Origin: an uncultured Allomuricauda sp.
Lineage (GTDB): Bacteria; Bacteroidota; Bacteroidia; Flavobacteriales; Flavobacteriaceae
Length of the DNA stretch: 64,000 nt
Reading direction: 5' to 3'
Assembly: GCF_947499585.1 (NCBI RefSeq)
Contig: NZ_CANMOO010000004.1
Coordinates: forward strand, 186,001-250,000
Positions 3,081-20,865 of the stretch are shown piece by piece. Under the pieces are notes generated by a model that saw only the letters and a list, made by a program, of their open reading frames with translations, was not told where the DNA came from and searched no databases. The translations under genes were made by a program, and so were the position numbers. Each line of letters starts with the position of its first letter. Position 1 is the first letter of the stretch.

Positions 3081-3275
3081 TTTTGATTCTTTTTTTAGAT
3101 GTTAATTACAGCACAAATCAATTAATAAACCTTGCGTGAATCACTAAAAAGGTTTGTGAAAGGGAATTTTAGAGTTTAAAAAGGAATAAAAAAGGGATGT
3201 ATAAGGACCGGCCAGTTTTCTAAATTTTAAAACTTATCTTTTATATTAGCCATAGTTGCACGGAATCTTTGAACA

Positions 3276-6475: not shown

Positions 6476-6775
6476 TTAATTTCTATTGGGACCTCCTTGT
6501 CTTTTAGGTTTAGGAGCTTTTTTAAATTCCTCTTCGTTGATATAACCATCTTCGTTCAAGTCAACTTTGTCGAAATTATTTTTTAAAGGCCCTTTAACTT
6601 CTGCTTTGGAAAGTTTTCCGTCTTCATCTTTATCCATTTTTTTTAAAAGCTCATCAAAGGATGGAGGTTCTCTTCTTTCAGAGTTTCTTTCTCGCTGTTG
6701 GGCTTTTAAATTACAAGAAGTCAATATTCCAATTATTCCTATAGAGATTGCTAACTTTAAAGTGCTGTTCTTCAT
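6476..6775 (-). CDS. EF-hand lipoprotein
   Basis: A 99-residue lipoprotein (lipobox L-T-S-C, Cys21) with a pair of EF-hands. The calcium loops are D48-x-D50-x-D52-G and D72-x-N74-x-D76-G, both with complete ligand patterns. The tail is basic and rich in Pro and Gly. It lies just upstream of the YHYH gene in the same direction, so it is probably the first gene of that operon. It is divergent from the ECF sigma factor. Expected location: periplasmic side of a membrane, binding calcium. Confidence 0.85.
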   Translation of the reverse strand: MKNSTLKLAISIGIIGILTSCNLKAQQRERNSERREPPSFDELLKKMDKDEDGKLSKAEVKGPLKNNFDKVDLNEDGYINEEEFKKAPKPKRQGGPNRN

Positions 6776-6902: not shown

Positions 6903-7481
6903 TTGGAGGACAAGCAGTTTTTAGCGGATCTTAGAGAGCAGAAACAATCCGCTTACAGTAGATTGTTAGATGATTACCAAAGCAAGGTCTTTAATACTTG
7001 TCTCTCATTTGTTCCCAACAAGGAGGATGCTGAAGATATTGCTCAGGAAGTTTTTGTAGAGGTTTATAACTCCATTAAAAAGTTCAAGGGCGACTCCAAA
7101 CTTTCCACTTGGATATATAGGATTTCTGTGAACAAGAGTTTGGAATTCATAAGAAAGAAAAGCACCAAGAAGCGTTTTGGTTTTATGCAGTCGATTACAG
7201 GCGGGAACATACCCGTTGATAAATCTTCCTATTTTACAGAATTCAATCACCCGGGGATTCAACTAGAAAACAAGGAGAAGAGTGAGCTTTTATTCAATGC
7301 GATCAATAAGCTTCCAGAGGCACAAAAAGTTGTATTCACATTGCATAAAGTTGATGGAATGAGCTACAAAGAAGTGAGTGAGGTTACCGAAAAAAGCGTA
7401 TCCTCAATTGAGTCATTGTTGTTCAGGGCAAAAAAGAATTTGCAGAAGATTTTAACAGAATATTATAAAAATGATTCCTAG
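6903..7481 (+). CDS. ECF-type RNA polymerase sigma factor
   Basis: A 192-residue sigma-70 family protein of ECF size. Region 2 (E-D-A-E-D-I-A-Q-E-V-F, then F-K-G-D-S-K-L-S-T-W-I-Y-R-I) and region 4 (L-P-E-A-Q-K-V-V-F, Y-K-E-V-S-E-V, S-S-I-E-S-L-L-F-R-A) are both intact. The frame has a stop at 6888-6890 and no ATG before region 2, so TTG at 6903 is the best start. The next two genes encode a one-TM protein, a plausible anti-sigma factor, and a Spy/CnrX-like protein. This resembles metal or envelope-stress sigma modules. Confidence 0.9.
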   Translation: MEDKQFLADLREQKQSAYSRLLDDYQSKVFNTCLSFVPNKEDAEDIAQEVFVEVYNSIKKFKGDSKLSTWIYRISVNKSLEFIRKKSTKKRFGFMQSITGGNIPVDKSSYFTEFNHPGIQLENKEKSELLFNAINKLPEAQKVVFTLHKVDGMSYKEVSEVTEKSVSSIESLLFRAKKNLQKILTEYYKNDS

Positions 7482-7532
7482 GCCGCAAGGTTGAATAAAA
7501 AAAAACATCTAAACTATATAACATTAAAAATC

Positions 7533-7850
7533 ATGGATGGTAAAAAAAATACACAGCAAAAAATTGATGAGGTCCTAGAAACGGTATCTCATATTGAAGC
7601 GGTGAATACTCCTCCGTTTTTTAAGGATAGAGTGCTTAATAGGTTGTCTAACGACAATGAAGTAAATGAAGCTTCAAACGTATTGGATTGGTTTTTACCC
7701 AAATATCAAATTGCAGCGTTGGTTGTTTTTGCTGTTTTAAATTTTGGAGCACTATATGTTTATAACCATAACAATCAAATAGAGGAGATAGAGGCATTTG
7801 CGCAGTCATATGGCCTTTCTTTTGATGAAGATAATTCTATTTTAAATTAA
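7533..7850 (+). CDS. Small single-TM protein, candidate anti-sigma factor
   Basis: About 105 residues from the ATG at 7533; an upstream TTG at 7491 would add 14 residues but has a less natural start. The N-terminal part is soluble, with E-A-V-N-T-P-P-F-F-K-D-R-V-L-N-R-L, a segment typical of small flavobacterial proteins encoded after ECF sigma genes. One membrane helix (about 55-77 of the short form) is followed by a short acidic periplasmic tail. Position between the sigma factor and a Spy-like protein suggests an anti-sigma role. That is inference, since there is no recognised zinc anti-sigma motif. Confidence 0.6.
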   Translation: MDGKKNTQQKIDEVLETVSHIEAVNTPPFFKDRVLNRLSNDNEVNEASNVLDWFLPKYQIAALVVFAVLNFGALYVYNHNNQIEEIEAFAQSYGLSFDEDNSILN

Positions 7851-7857
7851 GAACGGA

Positions 7858-8310
7858 ATGAAAAAAAATCTACTCTTAGGTCTTCTCTTACTTTTTTTGG
7901 TTGTTATGAATGGTATACTCCTTTTTATGCTATTTGGACAAGGACCGGAAAGAAGACCCCCAGGCCCCCCAGGAGATTTTATAGTTAAAGAATTGCGCTT
8001 TGATGAGAATCAAATGCAAGAATTTAGAAAATTGAGTAAGGCACATTTTAAGTCCATGCGGGTTTTGGATGAGCAATCTAGAAGACTTAAAGATGAACTC
8101 TTTAATGGTATTGGAGACAAAAGCTTTACTACAGGACAAGCAGATTCCATTACTACTTTAATTGCACAACTGAGTAAAGACAAAGAGTTAAATGTGTTTA
8201 ATCATTTTAAAGAAGTTGGTGAGATTTGTACACCAGAGCAAAAAGCTAAATTGGATAAAATAATATCCAAGGCGTTACATCGACACAGAAAAGGAATGCG
8301 ACCACACTAG
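7858..8310 (+). CDS. Spy/CpxP/CnrX-like periplasmic protein
   Basis: A 150-residue protein with an N-terminal membrane anchor (about 4-25) and a P-G-P-P-G linker. A helical-hairpin domain of the heavy-metal-resistance / LTxxQ group follows (L-R-F-D-E-N-Q-M-Q-E-F, later I-C-T-P-E-Q-K-A-K-L-D-K-I). The tail is rich in His and Arg. Relatives sense metal or misfolded protein in the periplasm. It starts 7 bp after the one-TM gene, so sigma factor, TM protein and Spy-like protein are likely one operon. That arrangement recalls CnrH-CnrY-CnrX. Confidence 0.8.
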   Translation: MKKNLLLGLLLLFLVVMNGILLFMLFGQGPERRPPGPPGDFIVKELRFDENQMQEFRKLSKAHFKSMRVLDEQSRRLKDELFNGIGDKSFTTGQADSITTLIAQLSKDKELNVFNHFKEVGEICTPEQKAKLDKIISKALHRHRKGMRPH

Positions 8311-8700: not shown

Positions 8701-10314
8701 ATGTCAAAAAAGCTTATCGAGATTGCCAAAATTTCTACCCTTCAAGAAAAAACCCCAGCCTACGCCATAGTCAAAAACACAGATTTAGTCATTATAAAGC
8801 ACGAAACAGGTATATCTGTTTTATATGGCCGTTGCCATCACAGAGGAGCTCTTTTAGCTGATGGTCATGTTGAAGGTCAGAATCTTATTTGCGGAGTTCA
8901 TGGGTGGGATTACCGGTACGACACAGGAATAAGTGAATATAACAATAGCGAACAACTTCATAAGTTTCAAGAGCATGTTGAAGGTGATTCATTACAAGTT
9001 GATGAACATGAAATAGCAGCTTTTGAAAATGAACACCCACAACCTTTCGATAGGGAAGCCTATTTAGGTACCTATGCAGACACACACCCTGAAGATACCG
9101 AACCCTATACTGGCTATATCAAGGAATTGGCCCAAAACGGCCTTAAGAATCTAGGACATCACGGGTTTTCCTCATCCATGGGTGTGGATAGAAATACCTT
9201 GCCCAAATGGAGCGATATCCAGTTTTTGCCGGCACAGCTGGCAAGCAGACCTCTTTTAGATCATGAAGAAGTGGAAACAAAAGTGACTATTGGCCCAAAA
9301 TCCAAAAAGCCACTGGTTTTGGATATACCCCTGTTTGTAAGTGATATGAGTTTTGGTGCACTATCTAGAGAAGCAAAAATTGCCCTATCTAAAGGAGCAC
9401 AGATGGCCGGAACTGGAATTTGTTCTGGAGAAGGAGGGATGTTGCCAGATGAGCAAAAAAATAATTCCAGGTATTTTTATGAATTGGCCTCCGCACAGTT
9501 TGGTTTTTCATGGGATAAACTGGATAATGTACAAGCCTTTCATTTTAAAGGAGGGCAAGGGGCTAAAACAGGCACAGGCGGACATTTGCCTGGGAATAAG
9601 GTAAGCAAAGAAATAGCCGAAGTAAGAGGATTAAAAGAAGGCGAAACCGCTATTAGCCCTGCCACTTTTCCAGATTTTCATGGAGTGAAGGATTTTAAAT
9701 CCTTTGCCGAAAAAGTTAGGGAACGTACGGGAGGAATACCCGTAGGCTTTAAAATTGCGGCAAGTCATATTGAAAAAGACATTCAGTTTGCATTGGATGT
9801 TGGGGTGGATTACATCATTTTAGACGGACGCGGAGGCGGAACTGGTTCAGCACCAACAATTCTTCGAGACAATATTAATGTTCCTACAATTCCGGCATTG
9901 GCAAGAGCCAGAAAGTATTTGGACAAAGTAGGCGCTACAGATGTTACGCTCATTATTACCGGAGGACTGCGGATTGCAGAGGACTTTTCAAAAGCAATGA
10001 TGCTGGGAGCAGATGCAATAGCTGTTTCAAATTCCGCCATTCAAGCAATAGGATGTTTGGGTATGCGTGCTTGTGGCAGCAATAATTGCCCTGTAGGTAT
10101 CGCCACACAAAAAGAAGGCTTAAGAAGTAGATTGATCATTGATACTTCAGCCAAACAATTGCATAATTTTTTCAGCGCCACCAACGATTTAATTAAAGTA
10201 GTAGCACGTTCATGTGGTTATAATGATATTTCAAAATTCAATCATAGTGACCTATCAACATTTAATAAGGACATGCATGACCTAACAGGAATCGATTATG
10301 CGGGAGTTCGCTAA
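8701..10314 (+). CDS. Rieske [2Fe-2S] domain fused to an FMN glutamate-synthase-like domain
   Basis: A 537-residue cytoplasmic fusion. Residues about 5-105 form a Rieske ferredoxin-type domain with the cluster motif Cys45-x-His47 and Cys64-x2-His67. Residues about 145-530 match the FMN/Fe-S domain of glutamate synthase: P-L-F-V-S-D-M-S-F-G-A-L-S near the start, G-G-Q-G-A-K-x-G-x-G-G-x-L-P, and D-G-R-G-G-G-T-G. Cys452, Cys458 and Cys463 (C-P-V-G-I-A-T-Q) are placed as for the [3Fe-4S] cluster. The glutaminase domain of true GltB is absent. The substrate is unknown. It is the first gene of the Rieske cluster, followed after 12 bp by an antiporter. Confidence 0.85.
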   Translation: MSKKLIEIAKISTLQEKTPAYAIVKNTDLVIIKHETGISVLYGRCHHRGALLADGHVEGQNLICGVHGWDYRYDTGISEYNNSEQLHKFQEHVEGDSLQVDEHEIAAFENEHPQPFDREAYLGTYADTHPEDTEPYTGYIKELAQNGLKNLGHHGFSSSMGVDRNTLPKWSDIQFLPAQLASRPLLDHEEVETKVTIGPKSKKPLVLDIPLFVSDMSFGALSREAKIALSKGAQMAGTGICSGEGGMLPDEQKNNSRYFYELASAQFGFSWDKLDNVQAFHFKGGQGAKTGTGGHLPGNKVSKEIAEVRGLKEGETAISPATFPDFHGVKDFKSFAEKVRERTGGIPVGFKIAASHIEKDIQFALDVGVDYIILDGRGGGTGSAPTILRDNINVPTIPALARARKYLDKVGATDVTLIITGGLRIAEDFSKAMMLGADAIAVSNSAIQAIGCLGMRACGSNNCPVGIATQKEGLRSRLIIDTSAKQLHNFFSATNDLIKVVARSCGYNDISKFNHSDLSTFNKDMHDLTGIDYAGVR

Positions 10315-10326
10315 ATTTTAAACCTA

Positions 10327-11565
10327 ATGTTTCAGATTTTCACAGGCATAGTAGCCCTATCATCCATTCTCAGCTTTATCAATAAAAAAGTACTGAAGCT
10401 TCCAGATACGATTGGTGTCATGCTCTTGGCAATTGTAGCTTCATTATTGATTGGAGCCCTTAATTTTATTGATCATGAGGCTTTTGTCAGCGTCTGTTCC
10501 GTTATTGACGAAATTGACTTTAGAACAATTTTGTTTGATTTTCTACTGAGTTTTTTACTTTTTGCCGGCTCTATTCATGTAAACCTTCACAATCTGCTCG
10601 AAGAAAAAGGCCCCGTCCTTATATATGCATCAGTAGGGGTTTTAATCTCCACATTTCTAATTGGAACATTGTTTTATTACGTAAGTGGATTTTTTGGGAT
10701 GAATATCGACTACATATATTGCCTTGTTTTTGGGGCTTTAATCTCTCCAACAGATCCTATTGCCGTTCTGGCATTACTGAAAAAAGCGGGAGCACCAAAA
10801 GATTTGGAAATCAAAATAATAGGTGAGTCCTTATTCAATGATGGTGTGGGAATCGTGGTTTTTATATCGCTTTTATCCATAGCAACGATGACCAGCGGCC
10901 ATGGTGTTGAACCGTCACATATCTTTTTGGAATTTGCACAAGAAGCTTTTGGGGGAATTGCCTTAGGGTTTGTCTTGGGTTATATCGGTAAACTTTTTCT
11001 CAATAGAATATATGAATCACCCATAGTGGCAGTGCATATTTCCATAGCTATTGTTATGGGCGGATATTGGTTAGCTTCATTAATTCATGTTTCTGGAGCA
11101 TTGGCGATGGTAGTTATGGGATTAATGATAGGGGATTATCTGCATAAATCTTGCAAAAGTGACCCACTAAAAGAACACATGAATACCTTTTGGAAGGTTT
11201 TGGATGAAATTTTAAACGCTATCCTATTCGTTTTGATAGGATTGGAAATAGTGAGTCTCGATTTTCAACTAAATTATTTAATTGCTGGATTAGTTGCGAT
11301 TCCGATTGTGCTCTTTTCAAGATATGTTTCTGTTTTTATTTCAAACATATTTTTAAAAAAAGGACACCGCAGCAATAAGAATAAAATAACCATATTGACC
11401 TGGGCAGGTTTACGAGGAGGAATTTCAATTGCACTTGCATTGACTTTACCAGATGGGGAATTTAGGGAGGCATTAATTTTTGTTACTTACTGCGTAGTGG
11501 TATTCTCAATTATAGTACAAGGCCTCACCATTGATAAAGTGGTGGTAAAACTGCTCAAAAACTAA
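10327..11565 (+). CDS. CPA1-type sodium/proton antiporter (NhaP-like)
   Basis: A 412-residue inner-membrane protein with about 12 hydrophobic segments. The family motifs F-G-A-L-I-S-P-T-D-P-I-A-V near 135-148 and G-E-S-L-F-N-D-G-V-G with Asn171-Asp172 are present, matching the electroneutral CPA1 exchangers. A late T-W-A-G-L-R-G-G-I-S-I-A-L-A-L motif is also typical. It sits between two Rieske fusion genes with gaps of 12 and 30 bp, so it is probably co-expressed with them. Coupling of ion exchange to the neighbouring redox proteins is speculation. Confidence 0.9.
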   Translation: MFQIFTGIVALSSILSFINKKVLKLPDTIGVMLLAIVASLLIGALNFIDHEAFVSVCSVIDEIDFRTILFDFLLSFLLFAGSIHVNLHNLLEEKGPVLIYASVGVLISTFLIGTLFYYVSGFFGMNIDYIYCLVFGALISPTDPIAVLALLKKAGAPKDLEIKIIGESLFNDGVGIVVFISLLSIATMTSGHGVEPSHIFLEFAQEAFGGIALGFVLGYIGKLFLNRIYESPIVAVHISIAIVMGGYWLASLIHVSGALAMVVMGLMIGDYLHKSCKSDPLKEHMNTFWKVLDEILNAILFVLIGLEIVSLDFQLNYLIAGLVAIPIVLFSRYVSVFISNIFLKKGHRSNKNKITILTWAGLRGGISIALALTLPDGEFREALIFVTYCVVVFSIIVQGLTIDKVVVKLLKN

Positions 11566-11595
11566 CTCATTAACTGGAAAAAATAACAACTAATT

Positions 11596-13551
11596 ATGGC
11601 TTCTTCAAAAAAAACGATTTGGCATAAAGTATTGGATAATAAAAAAGAGCTTCCAGAAGGAAGGGTTAAAACGGTAACGGCCGCACACAAAGGAATTTGT
11701 TTGACCCATTTTGAAGGCAAGTTTTCCGCTTTGGATAACAGATGTCCGCACCAAGGAGGGCCATTGGGTGAAGGGTCCATTGAAAATGGAATGCTCCGTT
11801 GTCCGTGGCATGGCTGGGATTTTCATCCGTGTACTGGTTTGCCTCCCGGGGGGTATGATGATGGAATTGAAACTTTTGAAGTTAAAGAAGAGAACGATGC
11901 CATTTATGTTGGGGTAGAGGAAGAAGACGTTCATGAGGCCACCATTTCAGATATTATGGCAGAAACCATGGTAAACTGGGGTGTGACTAAGGTTTTCGGA
12001 ATGGTAGGACATTCCAATCTAGGTTTTGCCGATGCCATGAAGCGTCAGGAGGAGAAAGGAAAGTTAAACTTTTACGGAATACGGCATGAAGGCGCCGCTG
12101 CTTTTGCTGCTTCTGCGTATGGAAAATTAACTGGCAAGCCTGCAGCATGTTTTTCAATCGCTGGTCCCGGAGCTACCAATATGTATACGGGGATGTGGGA
12201 TGCTAAGGTAGATCGAGCGCCGCTTCTGGCGTTAACGGGTCAAGTAGCCACGCAGGTGGTGGGAACAGGAAATTTTCAAGAAGTAGATTTAGTTAGAGGG
12301 TTTAGTACTGTCGCTGAATTTAATCAACGAGTACAAAGTGATAGTAAACATGCAGAGTTGATGTCTTTGGCTGTCAAAAGTGCCATTTTAAAGCGGGATG
12401 TCTCCCATTTGACTTTTCCTGATGAGGTTCAAGAAAGGTTGGCGAAACCCAATGAAAAAGCGCAAACACCAGACAAACGCATTACTGCAATGGAAATTGC
12501 ACCTCCAAAAGAGGCTGTAAATGATGCAGTTGAATTGATTAAAAAGTCAAAACGCCCTGTAATTGTAATGGGTCATGGTGCTAGAGCACATAAAAAGGCA
12601 ATTGTAGAGTTTGCAGAACGCTTAAATGCTACCGTAGTAACCACCTTTAAGGGCAAAGGATTAATTGCGGATAACCATCGTCTTGGTGGTGGAGTGCTTG
12701 GAAGGAGCGGTACTCCAATTGCCTCTTGGTTTATGAACGAGTCCGATGTATTGCTGGTTTTTGGAGCTTCGTTTTCCAATCACACCGGAATAACTCCCAA
12801 AAAACCCATTATTCAAGTGGATTTTGATCCTATGGCGTTAAGCAAGTTCCATAAAGTTGAAGTTGCCGTTTGGGGTGAAATATCAAGAACCCTTGAAATT
12901 TTTGAAGATGAATTGAATGGAAATATAAACACCGTAGATCAAACTCCTGAAATAGCCAAGCGTTGGAAAATTTGGAAGGAAGAAAAGGCAAAACGACTTT
13001 TGGAAACTTCAAACAAGGGTATTAGTTCCATTGCCGTTTTTGAAACGATGAATAAGTTGACCCCTGAAAATGCAGTGATGTGTGTAGATGTGGGTAATAA
13101 TGCCTATTCCTTTGGTCGTTATTTTGAACCTACAAATCAAGATTTTTTAATGTCTGGTTATTTAGGTTCTATTGGATTTGCATTACCTGCGGCCATTGGT
13201 GCTTGGACAGCGGTTGGAGATTCTAGACCAGTAGTTGCCGTTTCTGGGGATGGAGGGCTATGTCAATATTTAGCAGAAATTACCACATTGGTAAAGTATA
13301 ATATGCCTGTAAAGCTTATTGTTTTGAACAATCATGAACTTGGTAAAATTTCTAAAGAACAACGTGCAGGAGAATTTGATGTTTGGAAAACCTCACTTTC
13401 TAACCCAAACTTTGCTGAATTTGCCCAATCTTGTGGAGCTTGGGGAAAACGGGTTGAAAATCAAGATGATTTAGAGGCTGCAATGAAGGCATTGTACAAT
13501 GAAAATGGACCAGCAGTTTTAGAAGTACTAACAGATGTAAACCTGATTTAA
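11596..13551 (+). CDS. Rieske [2Fe-2S] domain fused to a ThDP-dependent pyruvate-oxidase/acetolactate-synthase-like enzyme
   Basis: A 651-residue soluble fusion. Residues about 8-108 are a Rieske domain with Cys50-x-His52 and Cys69-x2-His72 (C-P-H-Q-G-G-P-L-G-E-G and C-P-W-H-G-W-D). From about 113 a three-domain ThDP enzyme follows, with catalytic Glu165 in G-I-R-H-E-G-A-A. The ThDP-Mg motif is G551-D552-G553 and N578-N579. The middle domain could bind FAD, as in pyruvate oxidase, but that cannot be decided here. ThDP oxidases decarboxylate 2-keto acids and pass electrons on, so a fused Rieske centre could be the acceptor (inference). Confidence 0.85.
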   Translation: MASSKKTIWHKVLDNKKELPEGRVKTVTAAHKGICLTHFEGKFSALDNRCPHQGGPLGEGSIENGMLRCPWHGWDFHPCTGLPPGGYDDGIETFEVKEENDAIYVGVEEEDVHEATISDIMAETMVNWGVTKVFGMVGHSNLGFADAMKRQEEKGKLNFYGIRHEGAAAFAASAYGKLTGKPAACFSIAGPGATNMYTGMWDAKVDRAPLLALTGQVATQVVGTGNFQEVDLVRGFSTVAEFNQRVQSDSKHAELMSLAVKSAILKRDVSHLTFPDEVQERLAKPNEKAQTPDKRITAMEIAPPKEAVNDAVELIKKSKRPVIVMGHGARAHKKAIVEFAERLNATVVTTFKGKGLIADNHRLGGGVLGRSGTPIASWFMNESDVLLVFGASFSNHTGITPKKPIIQVDFDPMALSKFHKVEVAVWGEISRTLEIFEDELNGNINTVDQTPEIAKRWKIWKEEKAKRLLETSNKGISSIAVFETMNKLTPENAVMCVDVGNNAYSFGRYFEPTNQDFLMSGYLGSIGFALPAAIGAWTAVGDSRPVVAVSGDGGLCQYLAEITTLVKYNMPVKLIVLNNHELGKISKEQRAGEFDVWKTSLSNPNFAEFAQSCGAWGKRVENQDDLEAAMKALYNENGPAVLEVLTDVNLI

Positions 13552-13552
13552 T

Positions 13553-13768
13553 ATGGAAACTGTAATAACAATCTTTTTAACAATTTTAGCCCTTTACTTT
13601 GGTGTAGGACTGTTGTTTGGGTTGTATTTCGTGCTCCTTGGAGCAACAAAAATTGATTCTATAATGACGGATAGTAAAAAGAAGGTTCGACTACTTCTTT
13701 TTCCTGGAGTAGTAGCCACATGGCCCTTTTTATTGGGAAAACTATTTAAATCCCAAACTGCAGATTAA
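13553..13768 (+). CDS. Small two-TM membrane protein of the Rieske cluster
   Basis: A 71-residue protein with two hydrophobic segments (about 5-29 and 45-63) joined by a short charged loop (I-D-S-I-M-T-D-S-K-K-K-V-R). It begins one base after the Rieske-ThDP gene stop, and its stop overlaps the next start (TAATG), which argues for translation as part of the cluster. I recognise no family. It could be an accessory subunit of the membrane redox protein downstream. Confidence 0.65.
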   Translation: METVITIFLTILALYFGVGLLFGLYFVLLGATKIDSIMTDSKKKVRLLLFPGVVATWPFLLGKLFKSQTAD

Positions 13769-14157
13769 TGGATGCCAATTTAAGAAAAAGACATAAATAC
13801 AGTTGGTTGTTGCTTGCGATCATACTGCCCATTTTATTGATTTTGATTATCAAGGATTTGGATTTTAATCAACCTGAGAACGTTTCTTATGAGCCCAATG
13901 GAAGTTCAAGCAATGATATGGTTGCCGCCAGTTTAGTAAAGAGTAAGGGAACCTATATTCTTGAATTAAATATAAAGTCCCCACTTAGAAGTGCTTCATC
14001 TGTAGTCTATGCTTTGAATATGAAAGGGGAGAAGGGCACAAAATTGGGACAAATAAACGGCGCAGGTTCTTATACATTTCCTTCTGAAAAAGAAATCCAA
14101 GGAATCATAATACAGGATATACTCAAGAATCAAGAAATACTAAAACTGGAATTCTAA
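13768..14157 (+). CDS. Single-TM membrane-anchored protein of the Rieske cluster
   Basis: A 129-residue protein: basic N-terminus, one membrane helix (about 13-29), then an extracytoplasmic region of about 95 residues predicted to be beta-rich (Y-I-L-E-L-N-I-K-S-P, later G-A-G-S-Y-T-F). No cysteines or known domain are visible. It overlaps by one base with the genes on both sides, so it is surely in the operon. It may be a periplasmic accessory subunit; function unknown. Confidence 0.65.
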   Translation: MDANLRKRHKYSWLLLAIILPILLILIIKDLDFNQPENVSYEPNGSSSNDMVAASLVKSKGTYILELNIKSPLRSASSVVYALNMKGEKGTKLGQINGAGSYTFPSEKEIQGIIIQDILKNQEILKLEF

Positions 14158-15188
14158 TGGGATTGGATTATAAAATGGTGCTTTGGAATAAGCACAAAAA
14201 AACCTATGATAAGATTATTGCTTTGGGAATGGTCTTATACTTAGTACTATTTATAGCCCTAACATTGGCGTTCAATCCGGAAACCATAGCAGAAACCATG
14301 ATCATTCGAGCATTTGGCTCGTTAGCGGTTATCATGCTTCATATTATTTTGGTCATTGGACCTTTAAGCAGGTTAAATCCTCAGTTTTTGCCCATTTTGT
14401 ATAATCGTAGACATTTGGGAGTGAGTATGTTTTTGGCAGCACTGATTCATGGGGTATTCGCAATCATCCATTTTCACACATTGGGAAATGTGAACCCTAT
14501 TTATGCTGTATTCACTTCCAATATGGATTATGGTTCCTTGACCAATTTCCCATTTCAAGTTTTGGGTTTTTTAGCCTTGTTAATATTGTTCTTTATGGCT
14601 TCCACAAGTCATGATTTTTTTCTGAAAAACCTTTCTCCGAATGTATGGAAAGGGCTCCATATGCTTGTTTATGTTGCTTATGCCCTGATACTTCTTCATG
14701 TTTTTTTAGGGGCATTTCAACAAGAAACATCAATATTTACCATAGGCATTCTGGTTTTAGGGTTTATCGTGATAAGCAGTTTGCATTTAGTGGCGGCCTT
14801 TAAAGAATCTAAAGTAGATGGATTTAGGGGTGAAAAAGATACTGGAGGATGGTTGAAAGTATGTGATGTGCATGAAATTCCTGAAGACAGAGCCAAAATA
14901 TTTTCCGTAGGAGAGAAACGCGTAGCGATTTTTAAATATGATGGAAAATTATCTGCAATCCATAATGTCTGTAAGCATCAAGGAGGTCCTTTGGGAGAAG
15001 GCAAGATTGTAGATGGATGTGTTACCTGTCCTTGGCATGGATATCAATATCTGCCCCATAATGGGCAATCTCCTCCACCTTTTACCGAAAAAGTGGCCAC
15101 ATATGAGTTACGATTGGATAATGATATCATATACATTAATCCCATTGGGTTGGAAGAAGGAACCGAAGTTGAACCAATATTGTGCTAG
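14157..15188 (+). CDS. Ferric-reductase-like transmembrane protein with C-terminal Rieske domain
   Basis: A 343-residue inner-membrane protein. Residues about 18-215 contain about six helices resembling the ferric reductase-like (cytochrome b) domain, with candidate haem ligands among His62, His98, His168 and His181. A cytoplasmic or periplasmic C-terminal Rieske domain (about 230-335) carries Cys272-x-His274 and Cys291-x2-His294. Its C-K-H-Q-G-G-P-L-G-E-G core is almost identical to that of the Rieske-ThDP protein, suggesting domain duplication. The usual FAD/NAD(P)H domain of ferric reductases is missing; the Rieske domain takes its place. It probably moves electrons across or into the membrane. 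Confidence 0.85.
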   Translation: MGLDYKMVLWNKHKKTYDKIIALGMVLYLVLFIALTLAFNPETIAETMIIRAFGSLAVIMLHIILVIGPLSRLNPQFLPILYNRRHLGVSMFLAALIHGVFAIIHFHTLGNVNPIYAVFTSNMDYGSLTNFPFQVLGFLALLILFFMASTSHDFFLKNLSPNVWKGLHMLVYVAYALILLHVFLGAFQQETSIFTIGILVLGFIVISSLHLVAAFKESKVDGFRGEKDTGGWLKVCDVHEIPEDRAKIFSVGEKRVAIFKYDGKLSAIHNVCKHQGGPLGEGKIVDGCVTCPWHGYQYLPHNGQSPPPFTEKVATYELRLDNDIIYINPIGLEEGTEVEPILC

Positions 15189-15191
15189 GAC

Positions 15192-15980
15192 ATGGAGAAA
15201 AAGGATGAATTTTATATTGGTTATGTAGATGCTGTAGGTAAGGAAACGAAGAGTTCCATTAAGCGTTTTGTCCTAATTGCTTTGGCAACACTTCTAATTG
15301 GGGCCATTTTGTTTGGCTTCTTTCAGAAGGAGGCTAACAATAGCGTTTTTGATTTTGATACCCCCACAAAAATATCCGGCACTTATTATGAGGCTCCTTA
15401 TCCCATGCTACGAGTTGAACTTGCAAAGAACACTTTTAAGGATGTTCTTTTATTAGGTTTTGGGAAATTTGGGGCAAATGCTTATTTGGATAAAATCAAA
15501 AAGAGTGAAGGGAATATAAATGGCAAGCATTTGACCATTGAAGGAAATCTTATTTACTATAATGGGAAGACCTTGCTGCAGATTGATGATAGTCAAAAAA
15601 TAAGCCTGGATAATTCAAAAAAGAAAAATTTTGTACTACCAGAATCCATGGGTAATCATGAGGTTGTTGGAGAAATAGTTGACCCTAAATGCTATTTTGG
15701 GGTAATGAAACCTGGCTATGGAAAAATACACCGTAGTTGCGCAGCGCTATGTATTTCTGGCGGAATTCCCCCTGTTCTGGCTGTTTCGGACAATAATTCC
15801 ATTTCAGAATATTTTCTATTAACCGATTTGAAAGGAAACCCAATACATAAAGACATAGTACCATATATAGGCCTTCCTTCAAAATTAAAGGGAAAGGTTG
15901 AAAAACTGGAAGATTGGTACACTATGCGCATTGATGTTTCCAAAATAGAAAAGTTAGATAAAGAATCTTCAATTTACTAG
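15192..15980 (+). CDS. Membrane-anchored protein with a conserved Cys/His motif (D-P-K-C-Y ... H-x2-C-x3-C)
   Basis: A 262-residue protein: short basic N-terminus, one membrane helix (about 25-44), then a periplasmic part in two sections. Residues about 60-140 look like a small beta domain. Residues about 155-255 carry a tight motif with Cys167, His180, Cys183 and Cys187, followed by G-G-I-P-P-V. I recall this motif from uncharacterised bacterial proteins encoded beside Rieske or ferric-reductase-like genes, but I have no functional name for it. The spacing suggests a metal or haem site. It starts 3 bp after the membrane Rieske gene. Confidence 0.65.
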   Translation: MEKKDEFYIGYVDAVGKETKSSIKRFVLIALATLLIGAILFGFFQKEANNSVFDFDTPTKISGTYYEAPYPMLRVELAKNTFKDVLLLGFGKFGANAYLDKIKKSEGNINGKHLTIEGNLIYYNGKTLLQIDDSQKISLDNSKKKNFVLPESMGNHEVVGEIVDPKCYFGVMKPGYGKIHRSCAALCISGGIPPVLAVSDNNSISEYFLLTDLKGNPIHKDIVPYIGLPSKLKGKVEKLEDWYTMRIDVSKIEKLDKESSIY

Positions 15981-15981
15981 A

Positions 15982-16428
15982 ATGAAAAAAATTGTAATTG
16001 CTCTTCTTTTTATTATGAGTACCGTAACAATTGCCCAATCCATCGATTATAACACAAAAAAAGGTTATGCGGCCAATGGATATGATGTGGTTGCCTATTT
16101 TGATGGAAAAGCCGTTGAGGGAAAAAAAGAATTGGCCACTGGCCATGATGGAGTAAAATATAAGTTCTCCAGCCAAGAGAATTTGGATTCCTTCAAATCC
16201 AATCCTACTAAATTTATTCCGCAGTATGGCGGTTATTGCGCTTACGCTGTTGCCATTTCAGGCAAAAAGGTAAGCATCAACCCAGAAACTTTTGAGATTA
16301 GGGATGGCAAGCTCTATCTGTTCTACAATTCAGGAAAAACCAACACTTTAAATCTTTGGACCAAAGAATCTCCAGAAACACTGCAAACCAAGGCAGATGA
16401 GAACTGGAAAAAAATAAGAAACAAATAA
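15982..16428 (+). CDS. Secreted YHS domain protein
   Basis: A 148-residue protein with a signal peptide (about 1-18) and one YHS domain. Features are G-Y-A-A-N-G-Y-D-V-V-A-Y-F, Y-K-F-S-S-Q-E-N-L-D-S-F-K-S-N-P-T-K-F-I-P-Q-Y-G-G-Y-C-A-Y-A-V, and a closing W-x-K-x2 segment. YHS domains are linked to metal handling. It starts one base after the preceding stop and closes the Rieske cluster. Likely periplasmic, possibly presenting metal or accepting electrons from the membrane proteins (inference). An inverted repeat without a T-tail follows at about 16444-16473. Confidence 0.85.
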   Translation: MKKIVIALLFIMSTVTIAQSIDYNTKKGYAANGYDVVAYFDGKAVEGKKELATGHDGVKYKFSSQENLDSFKSNPTKFIPQYGGYCAYAVAISGKKVSINPETFEIRDGKLYLFYNSGKTNTLNLWTKESPETLQTKADENWKKIRNK

Positions 16429-16562: not shown

Positions 16563-17216
16563 ATGAACAAGTATTCAAAAGTTTGTTTTTCAGGATTGTT
16601 AGTTAGTTTTTTAGGGGCTTTGCCTTTAGGTACTTTGAACCTGACTGCTTTTGACATTGCTGCTTCTCAGGGTTTGAACTCGGCTATATGGTTTGCCATT
16701 GCAGTGGTTTTAGTGGAGCTTATTGTTGTAAGGTTAACGTTATATGGAAATGAGCGATTACACATAGGAGAGAAGTTATCATATTATCTTATTCCGTTTG
16801 GAATAATCCTCCTATTATATCTTGCAATTTCTAGCTTTTTAGCATCTGCTAGTTTTTCAGAAGTAGGCTCTAAAATAAATATGCTTCCACAGATTAATTC
16901 GGCGTTTTTACTTGGACTTTTATTAAGTGCGTTAAATCCATTGCACATTCCGTTCTGGATGACGTGGAACAAAGTTCTTGCCTCCAAGAAAATATTGGAG
17001 ACATCAAAAAAATCATATACATTTTATTTGTTTGGAATAGGTGTTGGGTCCCTTATAGGGCTTGGTATTTTCATTTCAGCTGGCAAATATATTTTTACAA
17101 ATTATGAGAACTATAGTATGGTTACCAATCTGTTAATGGGCCTATTGTACCTTGGGTTTTCTTTCTATCTTATGTTCTTATTCGTTAAAAAACGCCTTAA
17201 CCTCAAAATACAATAA
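16563..17216 (+). CDS. LysE family transporter
   Basis: A 217-residue inner-membrane protein with about six helices. The N-terminal G-A-L-P-L-G-T-L-N-L-T-A motif and the central A-L-N-P-L-H-I-P-F-W segment fit the LysE/RhtB amino-acid exporter superfamily. The exported substrate cannot be inferred. It begins 135 bp after the Rieske cluster and is followed at 5 bp by a DinB-like gene, so it likely leads the next operon. Confidence 0.75.
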   Translation: MNKYSKVCFSGLLVSFLGALPLGTLNLTAFDIAASQGLNSAIWFAIAVVLVELIVVRLTLYGNERLHIGEKLSYYLIPFGIILLLYLAISSFLASASFSEVGSKINMLPQINSAFLLGLLLSALNPLHIPFWMTWNKVLASKKILETSKKSYTFYLFGIGVGSLIGLGIFISAGKYIFTNYENYSMVTNLLMGLLYLGFSFYLMFLFVKKRLNLKIQ

Positions 17217-17221
17217 TTATT

Positions 17222-17707
17222 ATGTTCAAATCTTCCATAGATACTATTGAGCAGTTTAAAGAAATACTTTTACAACTTCCGGAAGAGCGCTATGCACAGT
17301 CATGTGAAGTACTCTCTAATGCAACTATTGGTCAACACACCAGACATATTATCGAATTATACTTATGTCTGATTAATGGGTATGAAGGAGCTGATGTATC
17401 TTATGACAAGCGTGAGCGAAATCATAGAATTGAACAAGAGCTACCATTTGCCATTGAACAATTACAATTGATTCAATCAAGTCTGGAAAGACCCAATAAA
17501 TCAGTAAAAGTGACCTACGAATTGGGTGATTCGGATACTTGTTTGGAATCTAATTATTATCGAGAGGTGATGTACAATTTGGAGCATACCATACACCATC
17601 ATGCTCTTATTAAGGTAGGTATTAGACATTTTTGCGCAATGGAACTACCCGAATCGTTTGGAGTTGCTCCATCAACAATGCAACATAGACAGGCATGTGC
17701 ACAGTAA
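17222..17707 (+). CDS. DinB-like helical-bundle protein
   Basis: A 161-residue protein with the metal-site pattern of the DinB/YfiT superfamily: His39 and His42 in I-G-Q-H-T-R-H-I-I-E and the cluster His122, His125-127 in L-E-H-T-I-H-H-H-A-L. Members are often metal-dependent thiol-S-transferases or unknown. It overlaps the NRDE gene by 13 bp and sits just after LysE. The family call is good; the reaction is unknown. Bacillithiol chemistry is possible given the YpdA gene nearby, but that is only a suggestion. Confidence 0.75.
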   Translation: MFKSSIDTIEQFKEILLQLPEERYAQSCEVLSNATIGQHTRHIIELYLCLINGYEGADVSYDKRERNHRIEQELPFAIEQLQLIQSSLERPNKSVKVTYELGDSDTCLESNYYREVMYNLEHTIHHHALIKVGIRHFCAMELPESFGVAPSTMQHRQACAQ

Positions 17708-18417
17708 GCTTTATTTCTAGAAATAATAACTATTTCATCACTTCAAACCGTGATGAACATATTTCACGTCCCTTGGCATTTGAACCAATGGAGGAAATTG
17801 TCAATTCAATTAAAATTCTTTTTCCAAAAGACCCCAAAGCAGGAGGCACATGGTTTGCGCTAAATGAAAATGGTGTTGTTGCAGTGCTGTTGAATGGTGC
17901 TTTTAAAAAACACAAATCCAAAGGAAACTATGCTAAAAGCAGGGGATTGATTTTGTTGGATGTAATCAGTGCTTCCAATCCTAAATCTTTTGTTGATGAG
18001 ATGGATTTGAACAATATTGAACCTTTTACATTGGTGTTGTTTGATGCCATTACTTTGATGGAGTTTAGGTGGGATGGGAAACAAAAACATTCTAAACCAC
18101 TGGATAAAAATCAAAGTCATATCTGGTCATCGGCTACATTATATGATGAAGAAGCAATAGCAAATAGAACTTCTCTTTTTTCTGAATTTATGAGTGTAAG
18201 CTCAGATATAGAGGCCTCTGATGTTGTTGATTTTCATTCCAATAACAATGAAGATTATGAGAACGGATTCATCATCGATAGAAATACTGGGCTTAAAACC
18301 TTTAGTGTTACACAAGCAGTTTTAACTAAGGAGGAAGCAGTTTTAAAACATTTTGATCTATTGAATGATAAGAAGTACGTTATTCCTTTTTCACCAAATC
18401 AACTCATAACAAAATGA
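17695..18417 (+). CDS. NRDE/TANGO2 family protein
   Basis: A 240-residue protein beginning M-C-T-V-S-F with the N-R-D-E motif at about 18-21, then P-K-D-P-K-A-G-G-T-W-F-A and N-G-V-V-A-V-L-L-N, as in the TANGO2 family. Cys2 would become the N-terminal nucleophile if the family acts as an Ntn hydrolase. Eukaryotic TANGO2 is tied to haem and lipid metabolism; bacterial roles are not established. It overlaps the DinB gene and, by 4 bp, the ATP-grasp gene, so the three are translationally coupled. Confidence 0.85.
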   Translation: MCTVSFISRNNNYFITSNRDEHISRPLAFEPMEEIVNSIKILFPKDPKAGGTWFALNENGVVAVLLNGAFKKHKSKGNYAKSRGLILLDVISASNPKSFVDEMDLNNIEPFTLVLFDAITLMEFRWDGKQKHSKPLDKNQSHIWSSATLYDEEAIANRTSLFSEFMSVSSDIEASDVVDFHSNNNEDYENGFIIDRNTGLKTFSVTQAVLTKEEAVLKHFDLLNDKKYVIPFSPNQLITK

Positions 18418-19457
18418 AACCTTGGAGATTAAAACTTCATAAACTAACACATTGGGAATATTGGCCTTTATGGGCAATTTATTACCCCTTGTTTCCCGTT
18501 TGGTTGTATTTCTCTATAAAGGCTCGTTCTTTCTTCTTCTTCAATGCAGCCAATCCCTCAATGAAAAATGGAGGTATGGCAATGGAATCAAAAATGGAGA
18601 TCTATGATATGATTCCGAAACAATATATCCCTAAGACCGTATTTATTTCTAAAAATGAAGCTCCGGAATTAGCTTTGGAAAAGGTATTGGTCGAAGGAAT
18701 TAGATTCCCGTTCATAGCTAAACCAGATATTGGTATGAAGGCGTTTGGAGTGGATAAGATTCATAACAAAGATGAGTTTAAAGATTATTTTTTAAGGAAC
18801 CCAGAACATTTTTTAATTCAAGAATTAATACCCTACACCAATGAAGTTGGAATTTTCTATGTTAGAAAACCTGGTGAGGAAAAAGGGGAAATTACAGGAA
18901 TAGTATCCAAACTGTTTTTATCTGTTTTGGGAGATGGAAAAAGTTCAATTTTGGAGCTTATAAAAAAAGACCCAAGAAGCCATTTACAATTAGAAGCTTT
19001 GCAAAAGAAGTTTGGTTTTAAACTGAATATGGTGTTGGATAAGGGTAAGGAGTTTATTTTGGTTCCATATGGTAGCCATACGCGAGGAGCTAAATTTATT
19101 GACGATACCCATAGATTAAATGAAGGGCTTTTGCATACCATAGACAGTATTTGTTCAAAAATTGAAGGGTTTCATTACGGGCGCTTAGATGTACTGCACA
19201 GCTCCATTGAAGAACTTTCTGAAGGGAAAAATTTCAGTATTATTGAGATTAATGGAGCAGGGGGAGAGGCCACACATATTTATGACCCCAAACACTCTTT
19301 GTTTTTTGCATGGAAAGAAATCACAAGGCATTGGAGTATGCTAAATAACATTAGTATAATAAACCATAAAAAAGGGTATTCTTATCTAAGCTTTAAGGAT
19401 GGTAGGGCTATGCTCAGAGCTAATGGAGAATTAGAAGCACAATTAAAAGTGATTTAG
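18414..19457 (+). CDS. ATP-grasp family ligase-like protein
   Basis: A 347-residue protein with an ATP-grasp core: F-P-F-I-A-K-P-D-I-G-M-K near 100, a middle lobe with Q-E-L-I-P-Y-T-N-E-V-G, and the Mg-binding E-I-N-G-A-G-G-E-A-T-H near 280. The first 45 residues contain a Trp/Tyr/Phe-rich segment that could lie on the membrane. It resembles D-alanine-D-alanine ligase-like proteins, but the substrate is unknown. The ATGA overlap with the NRDE gene suggests the two products act in one pathway. Confidence 0.75.
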   Translation: MKPWRLKLHKLTHWEYWPLWAIYYPLFPVWLYFSIKARSFFFFNAANPSMKNGGMAMESKMEIYDMIPKQYIPKTVFISKNEAPELALEKVLVEGIRFPFIAKPDIGMKAFGVDKIHNKDEFKDYFLRNPEHFLIQELIPYTNEVGIFYVRKPGEEKGEITGIVSKLFLSVLGDGKSSILELIKKDPRSHLQLEALQKKFGFKLNMVLDKGKEFILVPYGSHTRGAKFIDDTHRLNEGLLHTIDSICSKIEGFHYGRLDVLHSSIEELSEGKNFSIIEINGAGGEATHIYDPKHSLFFAWKEITRHWSMLNNISIINHKKGYSYLSFKDGRAMLRANGELEAQLKVI

Positions 19458-19458
19458 T

Positions 19459-20040
19459 ATGAAAACGAAAAATAATATTTTTGGCTTACTTTTTTGTGTT
19501 TCCAGTTTATCGCTTTGCTATGCCCAAGATTCAGATTCATCAAAAAATCAAACCGATTTGGGTGTTTCTATTCAAGTATACCCCGCGGGGATTATCCCTA
19601 CGGTAAATTTGGAATACTACTTAAATGAAAAGTCCTCTTTGGTCTTTCGCTTAGGCGCTAATTTTGTTGATAGGCAAGATTTTAGCGATGTTAACCTTAC
19701 CGAAGAAGGTGAAGGTTTTGGTGGTTCTGTTGGGTTTAGAAGGCATTTTCCATCGGGAAAAGGAAAGTTTGTAGCTGGACTTAATCTTGATGTTTGGAGT
19801 CTTAACATAGATTGGACCGATGATAATGGACCTAATGGAAATGTACAATCTGGTAGCACATATACATTAGTGGTACAACCTTGGTTGGAAGGCGGATATT
19901 TCTTGCCCATTAAGAATACAAAATCTCAAATTGGTCTTACACTTGGATTTGGTAGAGAAATCAATGCAATAACAAGTGGGGATGAGGTTGAACAAGGATT
20001 TATTGCAAGTGTCTTGTTGCAATATCAATTTTCACTTTAA
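19459..20040 (+). CDS. Outer-membrane beta-barrel protein
   Basis: A 193-residue protein with a signal peptide ending C-Y-A-Q (about 22). Alternating strands follow (V-N-L-E-Y-Y-L-N-E-K-S-S-L-V-F-R-L-G), and the C-terminus is aromatic (A-S-V-L-L-Q-Y-Q-F-S-L), as in small outer-membrane barrels. It begins one base after the ATP-grasp gene and closes the operon. Its end overlaps by 4 bp the convergent gene at 20037. Function unknown. Confidence 0.75.
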   Translation: MKTKNNIFGLLFCVSSLSLCYAQDSDSSKNQTDLGVSIQVYPAGIIPTVNLEYYLNEKSSLVFRLGANFVDRQDFSDVNLTEEGEGFGGSVGFRRHFPSGKGKFVAGLNLDVWSLNIDWTDDNGPNGNVQSGSTYTLVVQPWLEGGYFLPIKNTKSQIGLTLGFGREINAITSGDEVEQGFIASVLLQYQFSL

Positions 20041-20768
20041 TTCTTATAGTTTTTAAAAGCTTCTCTAAAAAACTGAACTACAATTTCTTGATTTGTTTCT
20101 GAAGCAGGTAAAACGGCTCCTTTAAACCCTTCATTAAGCCATTTTCCATGAGATAGGTTTTCAAAAGTTGAAGTATCCAAGCTATCATGACCTAAATATC
20201 CACTGATGTAAAAATAGTGTTCATTAATCATGGAATCCGGAATGGACAATCCCATACCTAAAGATTTTTCTGAGTTATCCAATTTTGAAAATGCTCCGGA
20301 ATCAAAATGATGGGGCCAAATTCGAATATCAGAAGTCAATTGTTCTTTTTCCAAAAATGATTTTAGTGCATTTTGGGCCAGTGTTCTTAACCCAATTAAT
20401 TCTTGTACATCTGACTTTTTAAATTTATCAGTTGGATTCATACTATAAGGCATATCGTAATGCAAATCAAATTGATATGGCTTTTCAAATCCAAGGGTTT
20501 TGGAAGTCTGGCTTAACCAGTTCACTACTTCCTCATGGGTTTTTCCATCTAATAAAAAGGAATTGTTTTCATGGGATTTCCACTCTAGTGAAAATTGCTC
20601 ATAGTTTAGGCAAAGTTTTGTGCCTGTATAATCCAAAGGCCAAGTTTGAATACTTTTTTCTTCAACAGAAAATCCTAGATTAGTATGGCTATCATCTGCT
20701 TTAGCTTCTAAAAAGCTTTTTGCCGCTGTAGCCAAATATTGGGCTGCCAAATGCAATTGTTGAGTCAT
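20037..20768 (-). CDS. Uncharacterised cytoplasmic protein (possibly DUF5996-like)
   Basis: A 243-residue soluble protein starting at the ATG at 20768; an upstream in-frame start at 20795 would add nine residues. It has no signal or membrane segment. Its order of features (W-P-L-D-Y-T-G-T-K-L-C-L near 45, D-L-H-Y-D-M-P-Y near 115, R-I-W-P-H-H-F-D-S-G-A near 168) loosely recalls the DUF5996 layout, but I am not sure. It converges on the outer-membrane gene with a 4-bp overlap. No function proposed. Confidence 0.6.
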   Translation of the reverse strand: MTQQLHLAAQYLATAAKSFLEAKADDSHTNLGFSVEEKSIQTWPLDYTGTKLCLNYEQFSLEWKSHENNSFLLDGKTHEEVVNWLSQTSKTLGFEKPYQFDLHYDMPYSMNPTDKFKKSDVQELIGLRTLAQNALKSFLEKEQLTSDIRIWPHHFDSGAFSKLDNSEKSLGMGLSIPDSMINEHYFYISGYLGHDSLDTSTFENLSHGKWLNEGFKGAVLPASETNQEIVVQFFREAFKNYKN

Positions 20769-20865
20769 TTTAATGGTTTTTAGTGTCCTTACCAATTAAA
20801 AGTAGGGATTTAGGTATGTTCCTTACTATTAAAAGCGGTTTAAGTAAAATGTAAAACCTCTTTTC

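Follow-up and report, generated by a model that had tools for sequence, protein, structure and literature searches.

A flavobacterial gene cluster with three Rieske-bearing proteins: two separable modules and a possible shared electron path

Introduction

The window analysed here, a 64,000-nucleotide stretch of DNA from an uncultured marine Allomuricauda sp. (Flavobacteriaceae; contig NZ_CANMOO010000004.1, positions 186,001–250,000), contains at positions 8701–16428 eight packed open reading frames (ORFs), all on the plus strand, three of which encode complete Rieske ligand sets. The Rieske domains are attached to unrelated parts: a glutamate synthase-like enzyme (Rieske-GltS), a thiamine diphosphate enzyme (Rieske-ThDP), and a membrane b-haem protein with a Ferric_reduct domain (FRD). 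Why are three such proteins encoded together, and do they exchange electrons? A sequence-only reading had proposed one electron-transfer system, in which electrons pass between the soluble enzymes and the membrane haem protein through Rieske centres. The observation is real and under-described; the proposed single system is plausible but needs amendment to two separable modules. The cluster consists of a cytoplasmic enzyme module and a membrane module, which are often but not always joined. A two-module redox system with a Rieske-to-Rieske electron path is the best explanation, and we give it nearly even credence.

Results

Layout of the cluster

The enzyme part begins with Rieske-GltS (8701–10314; 537 amino acids, aa), in which a Rieske domain (residues 6–77) precedes a Glu_synthase FMN/[3Fe-4S] domain (residues 182–507) without a glutaminase domain. 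A CPA1-type Na+/H+ antiporter (10327–11565; 412 aa; Pfam Na_H_Exchanger, 2e-66) and Rieske-ThDP (11596–13551; 651 aa) follow, the latter with a Rieske domain at residues 13–81 and a complete ThDP-enzyme core at residues 116–644. The membrane part comprises the small membrane protein sm71 (13553–13768; 71 aa), the small membrane-anchored protein sm129 (13768–14157; 129 aa), the six-helix FRD of the YedZ/STEAP type (14157–15188; 343 aa) with a C-terminal Rieske domain (residues 232–305), and the Cys/His protein KCYF (15192–15980; 262 aa). A secreted YHS-domain protein (15982–16428; 148 aa) is accessory. Pfam domains and full ligand sets in all three proteins bear out the sequence-only reading in its description of three Rieske-bearing proteins with unrelated modules, and the companions that it listed (antiporter, two small membrane proteins, Cys/His protein, and secreted YHS protein) are all in place. 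The spacings calculated from the ORF coordinates (12, 30, and 1 bp, two 1-bp overlaps, then 3 and 1 bp) reproduce its range from a 1-base overlap to 30 bp. A ninth linked gene had been missed: a DUF5996-like gene (20037–20795, minus strand), 3.6 kb downstream of the cluster and on the opposite strand, which is linked to GltS and ThDP in relatives and sits among the cluster genes in many of them.

The parent genome (3.77 Mb in 14 contigs) has four Rieske matches, three of which are the cluster proteins, encoded within about 6.4 kb; the fourth is a protein of 151 aa with a lipoprotein-like start, as judged by eye. Clustering of three Rieske genes by random placement was roughly estimated at 4e-5.

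Linkage of the Rieske genes in the phylum and the genus

Co-occurrence, which had been suggested as a check of the single system, was analysed in a phylum sample of 395 genomes searched with FRD, GltS, and ThDP. FRD was counted only if matched over most of its length (38 further genomes with Rieske-only matches were dropped), and GltS only if the match included the Rieske part (13 further genomes were dropped). Carriers numbered 13 for FRD, 48 for Rieske-GltS, and 11 for Rieske-ThDP. Rieske-GltS was present in 12 of the 13 FRD genomes (1.6 expected, P = 3e-11) and in 10 of the 11 Rieske-ThDP genomes (1.3 expected, P = 3e-9), and FRD coincided with Rieske-ThDP in six genomes (0.4 expected, P = 1e-7); these hypergeometric P values treat related genomes as independent and are optimistic for that reason. 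In 8 of the 13 FRD genomes, a Rieske enzyme was encoded at most 10 kb from FRD. In the other five, FRD was at or near contig ends (G420, G514, and G358), the genes were on different contigs (G484), or no partner was present (G389). A stop was found inside the GltS matches of G514 and G484 and inside the ThDP match of G072.

The 60 congeners included 10 with FRD, 12 with Rieske-ThDP, 12 with GltS, and 8 with an antiporter of at least 80% identity. In all 10 FRD congeners, one contig carries both FRD and ThDP, the matches starting 1.6–2.6 kb from each other, and eight of these congeners had GltS. The eight close antiporters all belonged to congeners with both FRD and ThDP; six more at 46–48% identity, from six genomes, are paralogues. 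In G573 and G580 only GltS was detected, together with a DUF5996-like gene. We consider the gene linkage, as a conserved association, near certain. The association goes far beyond chance in both samples, but FRD is absent from many genomes with the enzymes.

The surroundings of FRD were compared in 80 loci, the best 80 of at least 566 relatives; the closest named FRD among them, from Flagellimonas hymeniacidonis, was 98% identical. Among the membrane genes, 77 loci have sm71 upstream of FRD, 79 have KCYF at most 200 bp downstream, and BLAST identified sm129 in 55. Rieske-ThDP was encoded in 57 loci, Rieske-GltS in 48, both in 44, and either in 61. The antiporter was present in 40 loci, accompanied by ThDP in 39; for the DUF5996-like gene the count was 39, for YHS 31, and for a K+ channel 9. 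In the 26 loci of at least 19 kb with FRD below 70% identity, ThDP was found in 14, GltS in 13, either in 17, and the antiporter in 9, always with ThDP. The gene order changed from GltS–antiporter–ThDP–FRD in the window to ThDP–antiporter–DUF5996–GltS–FRD in L105 and FRD–KCYF–antiporter–ThDP in L102. An FMN_red flavoprotein was encoded in nine loci, all with ThDP and none with Rieske-GltS (9 of the 13 such loci; none of the 48 GltS loci); in some relatives it takes the place of Rieske-GltS.

Records beyond the phylum

The search beyond the phylum covered plasmid records. FRD with KCYF was found in five Rhizobium plasmid records; in the two examined in detail, the two genes had a 1-bp overlap and no Rieske enzymes lay nearby. 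Two of these plasmids (L114 and L115) encode a ThDP enzyme at 2054–3722 (minus strand), about 3.3 kb from FRD and on the other strand; it is 25–26% identical to the window ThDP and has no Rieske domain according to Pfam analysis of the L114 copy. The ThDP link may reach the Rhizobium plasmids too.

Rieske-ThDP was detected on four haloarchaeal plasmids at 57–59% identity, and three of them also carry Rieske-GltS. The distance between the two genes was 4 kb in Halorarius (with an antiporter and a K+ channel between), 1.4 kb in Salinirubellus, and 17 kb in Halorubrum; the Haloferax larsenii plasmid with Rieske-ThDP gave no GltS match. No FRD beyond its Rieske part was found in the haloarchaeal plasmid stretches, chromosomes being outside the search. 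The plasmid GltS matches H19 and H21 start past the N-terminal part, and H22 likewise has no N-terminal coverage. On a Mycobacteroides plasmid, Rieske-ThDP (51% identity) is near a cation:proton antiporter and a flavoprotein, the latter 55% identical to FMN_red of the flavobacterial loci.

Separability of the two modules

Several observations weigh against a redox system with an electron path into the membrane. Apart from the optimism of the P values, the 80 loci, as the best matches, lean to close kin. FRD is missing from 36 of the 48 Rieske-GltS genomes and 5 of the 11 Rieske-ThDP genomes of the phylum sample, and G389 has FRD without either Rieske enzyme. Within the genus, G584 and G593 carry GltS and ThDP side by side with FRD absent, and the ThDP match of G594 begins at residue 74, so that its Rieske half is missing or broken. 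In G584 (L134), a piece at 6561–6734 matching KCYF residues 200–262 lies between ThDP and YHS; this remnant is a trace of the membrane module such as its loss would leave. The haloarchaeal antiporter is just 29% identical to that of the window. The Bacteroidota promoter pattern gave 6 matches against 5.8 expected by chance, none of them near 8701, so the case for co-transcription rests on spacing.

Separate occurrence of the fusions, named by the sequence-only reading as counter-evidence, is half of the picture: they were found both separately and in shared neighbourhoods. Because the Rieske enzymes occur independently of FRD, the haem protein is one possible partner of the enzymes and not the sole one, and the proposed route into the membrane haem, although possible, is not obligatory.

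Ligands and lineage of the Rieske domains

All four Rieske ligands (CxH...CxxH) are present in each of the three window proteins: C45, H47, C64, and H67 in GltS, C50, H52, C69, and H72 in ThDP, and C272, H274, C291, and H294 in FRD. All 89 aligned FRD homologues have C272, H274, and H294, and 88 of them have C291. The ligands were conserved in 53 of 53 GltS rows and 60 of 60 ThDP rows, figures that are partly circular, since these rows were picked by the Rieske motif itself. Without such preselection, the motif was present in 52 of 56 clustered GltS, 59 of 59 ThDP, and 80 of 81 haem proteins. The ligand loops of the window proteins (CHHRG/CGVHG, CPHQG/CPWHG, and CKHQG/CPWHG) contain none of the extra disulphide cysteines of the bc1/b6f type, and the domains are therefore of the ferredoxin type. 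Ferredoxin-type Rieske domains have a low potential. In a tree built from few columns and with long branches, the Rieske domains of GltS, FRD, and ThDP formed one clade (support 97/96) against 16 other Rieske domains, with the haloarchaeal domains nested among the bacterial ones.

Rieske-GltS and the exchange of its N-terminal domain

Pfam detected Rieske (4e-11) and Glu_synthase (1e-85, 288.5 bits) in the window Rieske-GltS, and the [3Fe-4S] motif C-x5-C-x4-C (C452, C458, and C463) was found in 53 of 53 rows; by domain and cluster motif the protein belongs to the Glu_synthase FMN/[3Fe-4S] catalytic family. No hydrophobic segment exceeded the threshold. The protein is not a canonical glutamate synthase: it has 537 aa, and Pfam matched Rieske and Glu_synthase only, with no glutaminase domain. 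The same genome encodes a separate canonical full-length GltS (open frame of 1506 aa), and a role of Rieske-GltS in glutamate synthesis for assimilation was set aside on these grounds. K289 and R309, which we take to be the 2-oxoglutarate contact positions, are invariant (53 of 53 rows). The GGQ of the genome's canonical GltS is GGH in every Rieske, CDGSH, and rubredoxin form compared.

The N-terminal domain of this enzyme varies. Four of the 56 clustered GltS lack the Rieske motif (L090, L104, L107, and L112). Those of L090, L104, and L107 adjoin FRD and carry a pair of hydrophobic segments at the N-terminus; by their catalytic parts they group in a clade apart, together with the genome's own second short GltS. 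The L112 protein lacks the motif, yet BLAST aligns its residues 6–536 with the window protein at 63% identity. GltS of Vibrio fortis has two CDGSH domains and a catalytic part 65% identical to the window's, which falls within the Rieske-GltS clade beside the haloarchaeal ones (98/98); no linkage to ThDP or FRD was seen within the stretch examined. Three proteins from other phylum members carry one or two rubredoxin domains each, and the rubredoxin forms sit just outside the Rieske-GltS clade (96/94), in a catalytic tree with only one CDGSH and four rubredoxin sequences. Comparison of the sequences suggests that the Rieske domain of GltS is an exchangeable one-electron domain, swapped for CDGSH, rubredoxin, or N-terminal hydrophobic helices. 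A fusion of CDGSH with GltS has been published as type 5 CISD (PMC3174974) and was noted again in PMC5859297; the excerpts of these two papers contain no Rieske- or rubredoxin-GltS. Pfam gave no CDGSH match in the window Rieske-GltS, which thus lacks the tandem CDGSH of that type.

Rieske-ThDP and the antiporter

Rieske-ThDP contains a Rieske domain (4e-15) and three TPP domains according to Pfam. These domains, the catalytic Glu, and the GDG...NN motif identify the fold of ThDP-dependent 2-oxo-acid enzymes, and E165, D552, and N579 are conserved in 60 of 60 rows. The nearest solved structure to the ThDP part is Escherichia coli PoxB (3eya; E 3e-64 over 530 residues), and its phmmer neighbours include acetolactate synthase. 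The protein scored below every listed pyruvate oxidase equivalog cut-off (best 406.8 bits against 742). The active-site stretch LGKISKEQ contains Lys584, which is the same in 60 of 60 rows and aligns with a Phe of PoxB that is presumably part of the electron path of that enzyme.

The antiporter scored 169 bits with NCBIfam a_cpa1, under the cut-off of 279.6. As it follows ThDP more than FRD, it may help the enzyme module to keep acid or ions in balance. Charge compensation for outward electron flow, as in NOX, was not adopted as its function: the antiporter tracks ThDP and is also present in haloarchaeal stretches where no FRD was seen.

The membrane module

FRD matches Ferric_reduct (3.6e-13; 50.1 bits against a cut-off of 28) and Rieske (6e-18) in Pfam. 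It has six hydrophobic segments, and the K+R counts of the N-terminus and loops (5/0/3/0/2/0) predict both termini, and hence the Rieske domain, to be inside. The Rieske domain of FRD would face the cytoplasm, on the same side as both enzymes. The haem pattern R84, H98, H168, and H181 was found in 89 of 89 rows, with R84 and H98 14 residues apart and H168 and H181 13 apart. The YedZ/STEAP pattern has a 14-residue spacing in the third transmembrane helix (TM3). In this branch, Arg replaces the first canonical haem His, and the other three YedZ histidines are kept (PMC3591440). FRD shows the features of the branch: a six-helix Ferric_reduct domain, Arg for the first haem His, and the remaining His by spacing.

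Hydrophobicity scans revealed two segments in sm71 (residues 4–22 and 47–65) and a single N-terminal one in sm129 (residues 13–31); in the latter, 4 K/R precede the segment, and the remainder is predicted outside. KCYF has an N-terminal anchor; in its structure model an anchor helix appears to be followed by two OB-like barrels, predicted outside, with weak structural matches only. Its motif C167, H180, C183, and C187, in the outer part, is invariant in 49 aligned sequences. No Pfam family was matched by sm71, sm129, or KCYF at E 0.01, and Pfam analysis of the 49 KCYF-type proteins gave only scattered hits to 16 families with at most 4 members each, mostly one. The YHS protein was identified by Pfam YHS (6.5e-8) and NCBIfam NF041384 (128.7 bits against a cut-off of 70).

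Neighbouring genes

DUF5996 (PF19459) was matched by 5 of 30 aligned members of the DUF5996-like family (best 3.9e-13), the window copy giving no match at E 0.1. A gene of this family is the most faithful neighbour of stand-alone Rieske-GltS (L026, L027, L136, and L137). Among the 39 of the best 80 FRD loci (of at least 566) that have it, it lies downstream on the opposite strand, as in the window, in 16. In L026, a PycTM (Pycsar effector-like) membrane gene at 10928–11551 is near the stand-alone Rieske-GltS; this family is present in 10 of 89 clustered loci.

Upstream of the cluster (6903–8310, plus strand) are genes for an extracytoplasmic function (ECF) sigma factor, a small protein, and a Spy/LTXXQ-like protein, for which LTXXQ is just over the cut-off and Metal_resist is under it. 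The sigma factor and Spy genes recur upstream in several congeners, and the cluster may be regulated by them in response to envelope or metal stress. Downstream (16563–19457, plus strand) are genes for a LysE exporter, a DinB-like protein, TANGO2 (1e-18), and a 347-aa protein with weak ATP-ligase-like matches. DinB-like genes near FRD also occur in distant genomes (28 of 80 loci; L131 and L132).

Discussion

Proposed working of the system

The scheme that we infer, including substrates, bound cofactors, direction of flow, contact between Rieske domains, physiology, and the part of the antiporter, builds on the gene order, domains, cluster and haem ligands, predicted sidedness, conserved linkage, and GltS N-terminal exchange described above. 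The cytoplasmic module would consist of Rieske-ThDP, Rieske-GltS (or the FMN_red flavoprotein), the Na+/H+ antiporter, and the DUF5996-like protein. Rieske-ThDP would most likely catalyse oxidative decarboxylation of a 2-oxo acid, and the GltS-like enzyme, or the flavoprotein substituting for it, would oxidise an amino-acid-like substrate. The membrane module would comprise the small membrane protein, FRD with its cytoplasmic Rieske domain, and the outward anchored Cys/His protein, with or without the second small protein. Within each enzyme, single electrons would move from the cofactor to the Rieske domain of the same protein. In genomes with the membrane module, they could continue to the Rieske domain of FRD and through its haem, ending in the quinone pool or on the outer Cys/His protein; genomes without this module would rely on a different acceptor.

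A bolder form of this scheme, which we put forward only tentatively, is a shared plug convention. One Rieske sub-lineage would act as an exchangeable one-electron plug on unrelated cytoplasmic oxidoreductases, with the Rieske domain of FRD as the matching socket, so that oxidations of 2-oxo-acid and amino-acid type could all supply a single membrane cytochrome and a Cys/His protein on the outside. The plug would have been passed between phyla and into haloarchaea, and on GltS it would be replaceable by CDGSH or rubredoxin.

Alternative explanations

Proximity may also reflect shared regulation or joint transfer of two separate stress units that travel together without exchanging electrons. In that case the membrane part would act like MsrQ and reduce a target outside (metal or oxidised protein) with electrons from quinol or a soluble reductase, and a soluble reductase would supply electrons to the Rieske enzymes or withdraw them, on the model of Rieske dioxygenase systems. 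The occurrence of each module without the other, including on the Rhizobium plasmids, agrees with this, as do the patchy distribution in the genus (10 of 60), the position of haloarchaeal Rieske-ThDP near merA or arsenic genes on two plasmids, and the ECF sigma factor and weak Metal_resist/LTXXQ protein upstream. However, all three Rieske domains are of one sub-lineage in a genome that has just one other, the linkage persists despite changes of gene order, and Rieske-GltS is present in 12 of the 13 FRD genomes of the phylum sample even when not adjacent. We regard two such stress units as rather unlikely.

Two further explanations keep the cluster together and change what the Rieske domains do. 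They could be redox or oxidant sensors, or dimer or structural parts, that switch the enzymes rather than relay electrons: ThDP enzymes of this fold function without any Fe-S domain, GltS with CDGSH exists (PMC3174974), and CDGSH proteins are also discussed in cluster transfer in the excerpts of PMC5859297. This we find improbable, as rubredoxin, Rieske, and CDGSH, which all fill the GltS N-terminus, have one-electron transfer and not sensing as the common trait, and all four Rieske ligands are retained. Alternatively, the flow may be reversed, FRD taking electrons from quinol and reducing the Rieske enzymes, with GltS working reductively (2-oxo acid amination) and ThDP as a carboligase or synthase. 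Canonical GltS is indeed reductive, K289 and R309 are invariant, and acetolactate synthase is among the neighbours of the ThDP part. Against reversal stand the genome's own full-length GltS, which makes assimilation independent of Rieske-GltS, the His found where this canonical GltS has Gln, and the proximity of the ThDP part to the PoxB oxidase among structures and to pyruvate oxidase models, if under their cut-offs; there is little chance, in our view, that electrons run this way. The two-module system with a Rieske-to-Rieske path remains our preferred explanation.

Novelty and significance

None of the parts is of a new kind, and two of the three fusion types have been published: the FRD-Rieske architecture, and GltS bearing CDGSH in place of Rieske. 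For the Rieske-ThDP fusion and the joint system, no description was found in a library of open-licence papers, an absence that speaks only weakly for novelty. If the electron path is real, Rieske domains would be plugs that let soluble enzymes of unrelated chemistry share one transmembrane cytochrome, a role for which the papers searched likewise yielded no description. Even without the path, related catalytic domains preceded by Rieske, CDGSH, or rubredoxin amount to a ready-made swap experiment on what one-electron domains do for a flavo-iron-sulphur enzyme. The cluster also offers a place to look for the job of the CDGSH-GltS proteins, known since 2011 and assigned no role in the excerpts of their source.

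Comparison with known systems

E. coli PoxB shares the ThDP core with the window enzyme, and both would deliver electrons from a 2-oxo acid to the membrane. PoxB attaches to the membrane directly; the window enzyme has an added Rieske domain. NOX enzymes belong to the same superfamily as FRD and likewise carry electrons across the membrane, and by analogy with them ion exchange is a companion need of such flow. FRD differs from NOX in being without the FAD/NADPH domain, and the antiporter follows ThDP, not FRD.

With MsrQ/YedZ (of MsrPQ) and STEAP, FRD shares the Ferric_reduct core, the six helices, Arg for the first haem His, the three YedZ His, and an adjoining gene for an outside partner. 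Unlike them, FRD has a Rieske domain, a Cys/His double-OB protein as partner, and the additional invariant or near-invariant His 62, 86, 107, 152, and 210; no MsrP-type molybdoenzyme was matched by Pfam among the eight cluster proteins, to which this search was limited. The fusion of Ferric_reduct with Rieske corresponds to architecture M4, the Rieske extension of the bacterial FRD core in the 2013 FRD survey (PMC3591440), the excerpts of which mention neither its gene neighbourhood nor partner enzymes or a function. Type 5 CISD, as presented in the excerpts of PMC3174974, is of the same catalytic lineage as the window Rieske-GltS and differs in its electron-transfer part, with two CDGSH domains (3 Cys and 1 His) in place of one Rieske domain (2 Cys and 2 His).

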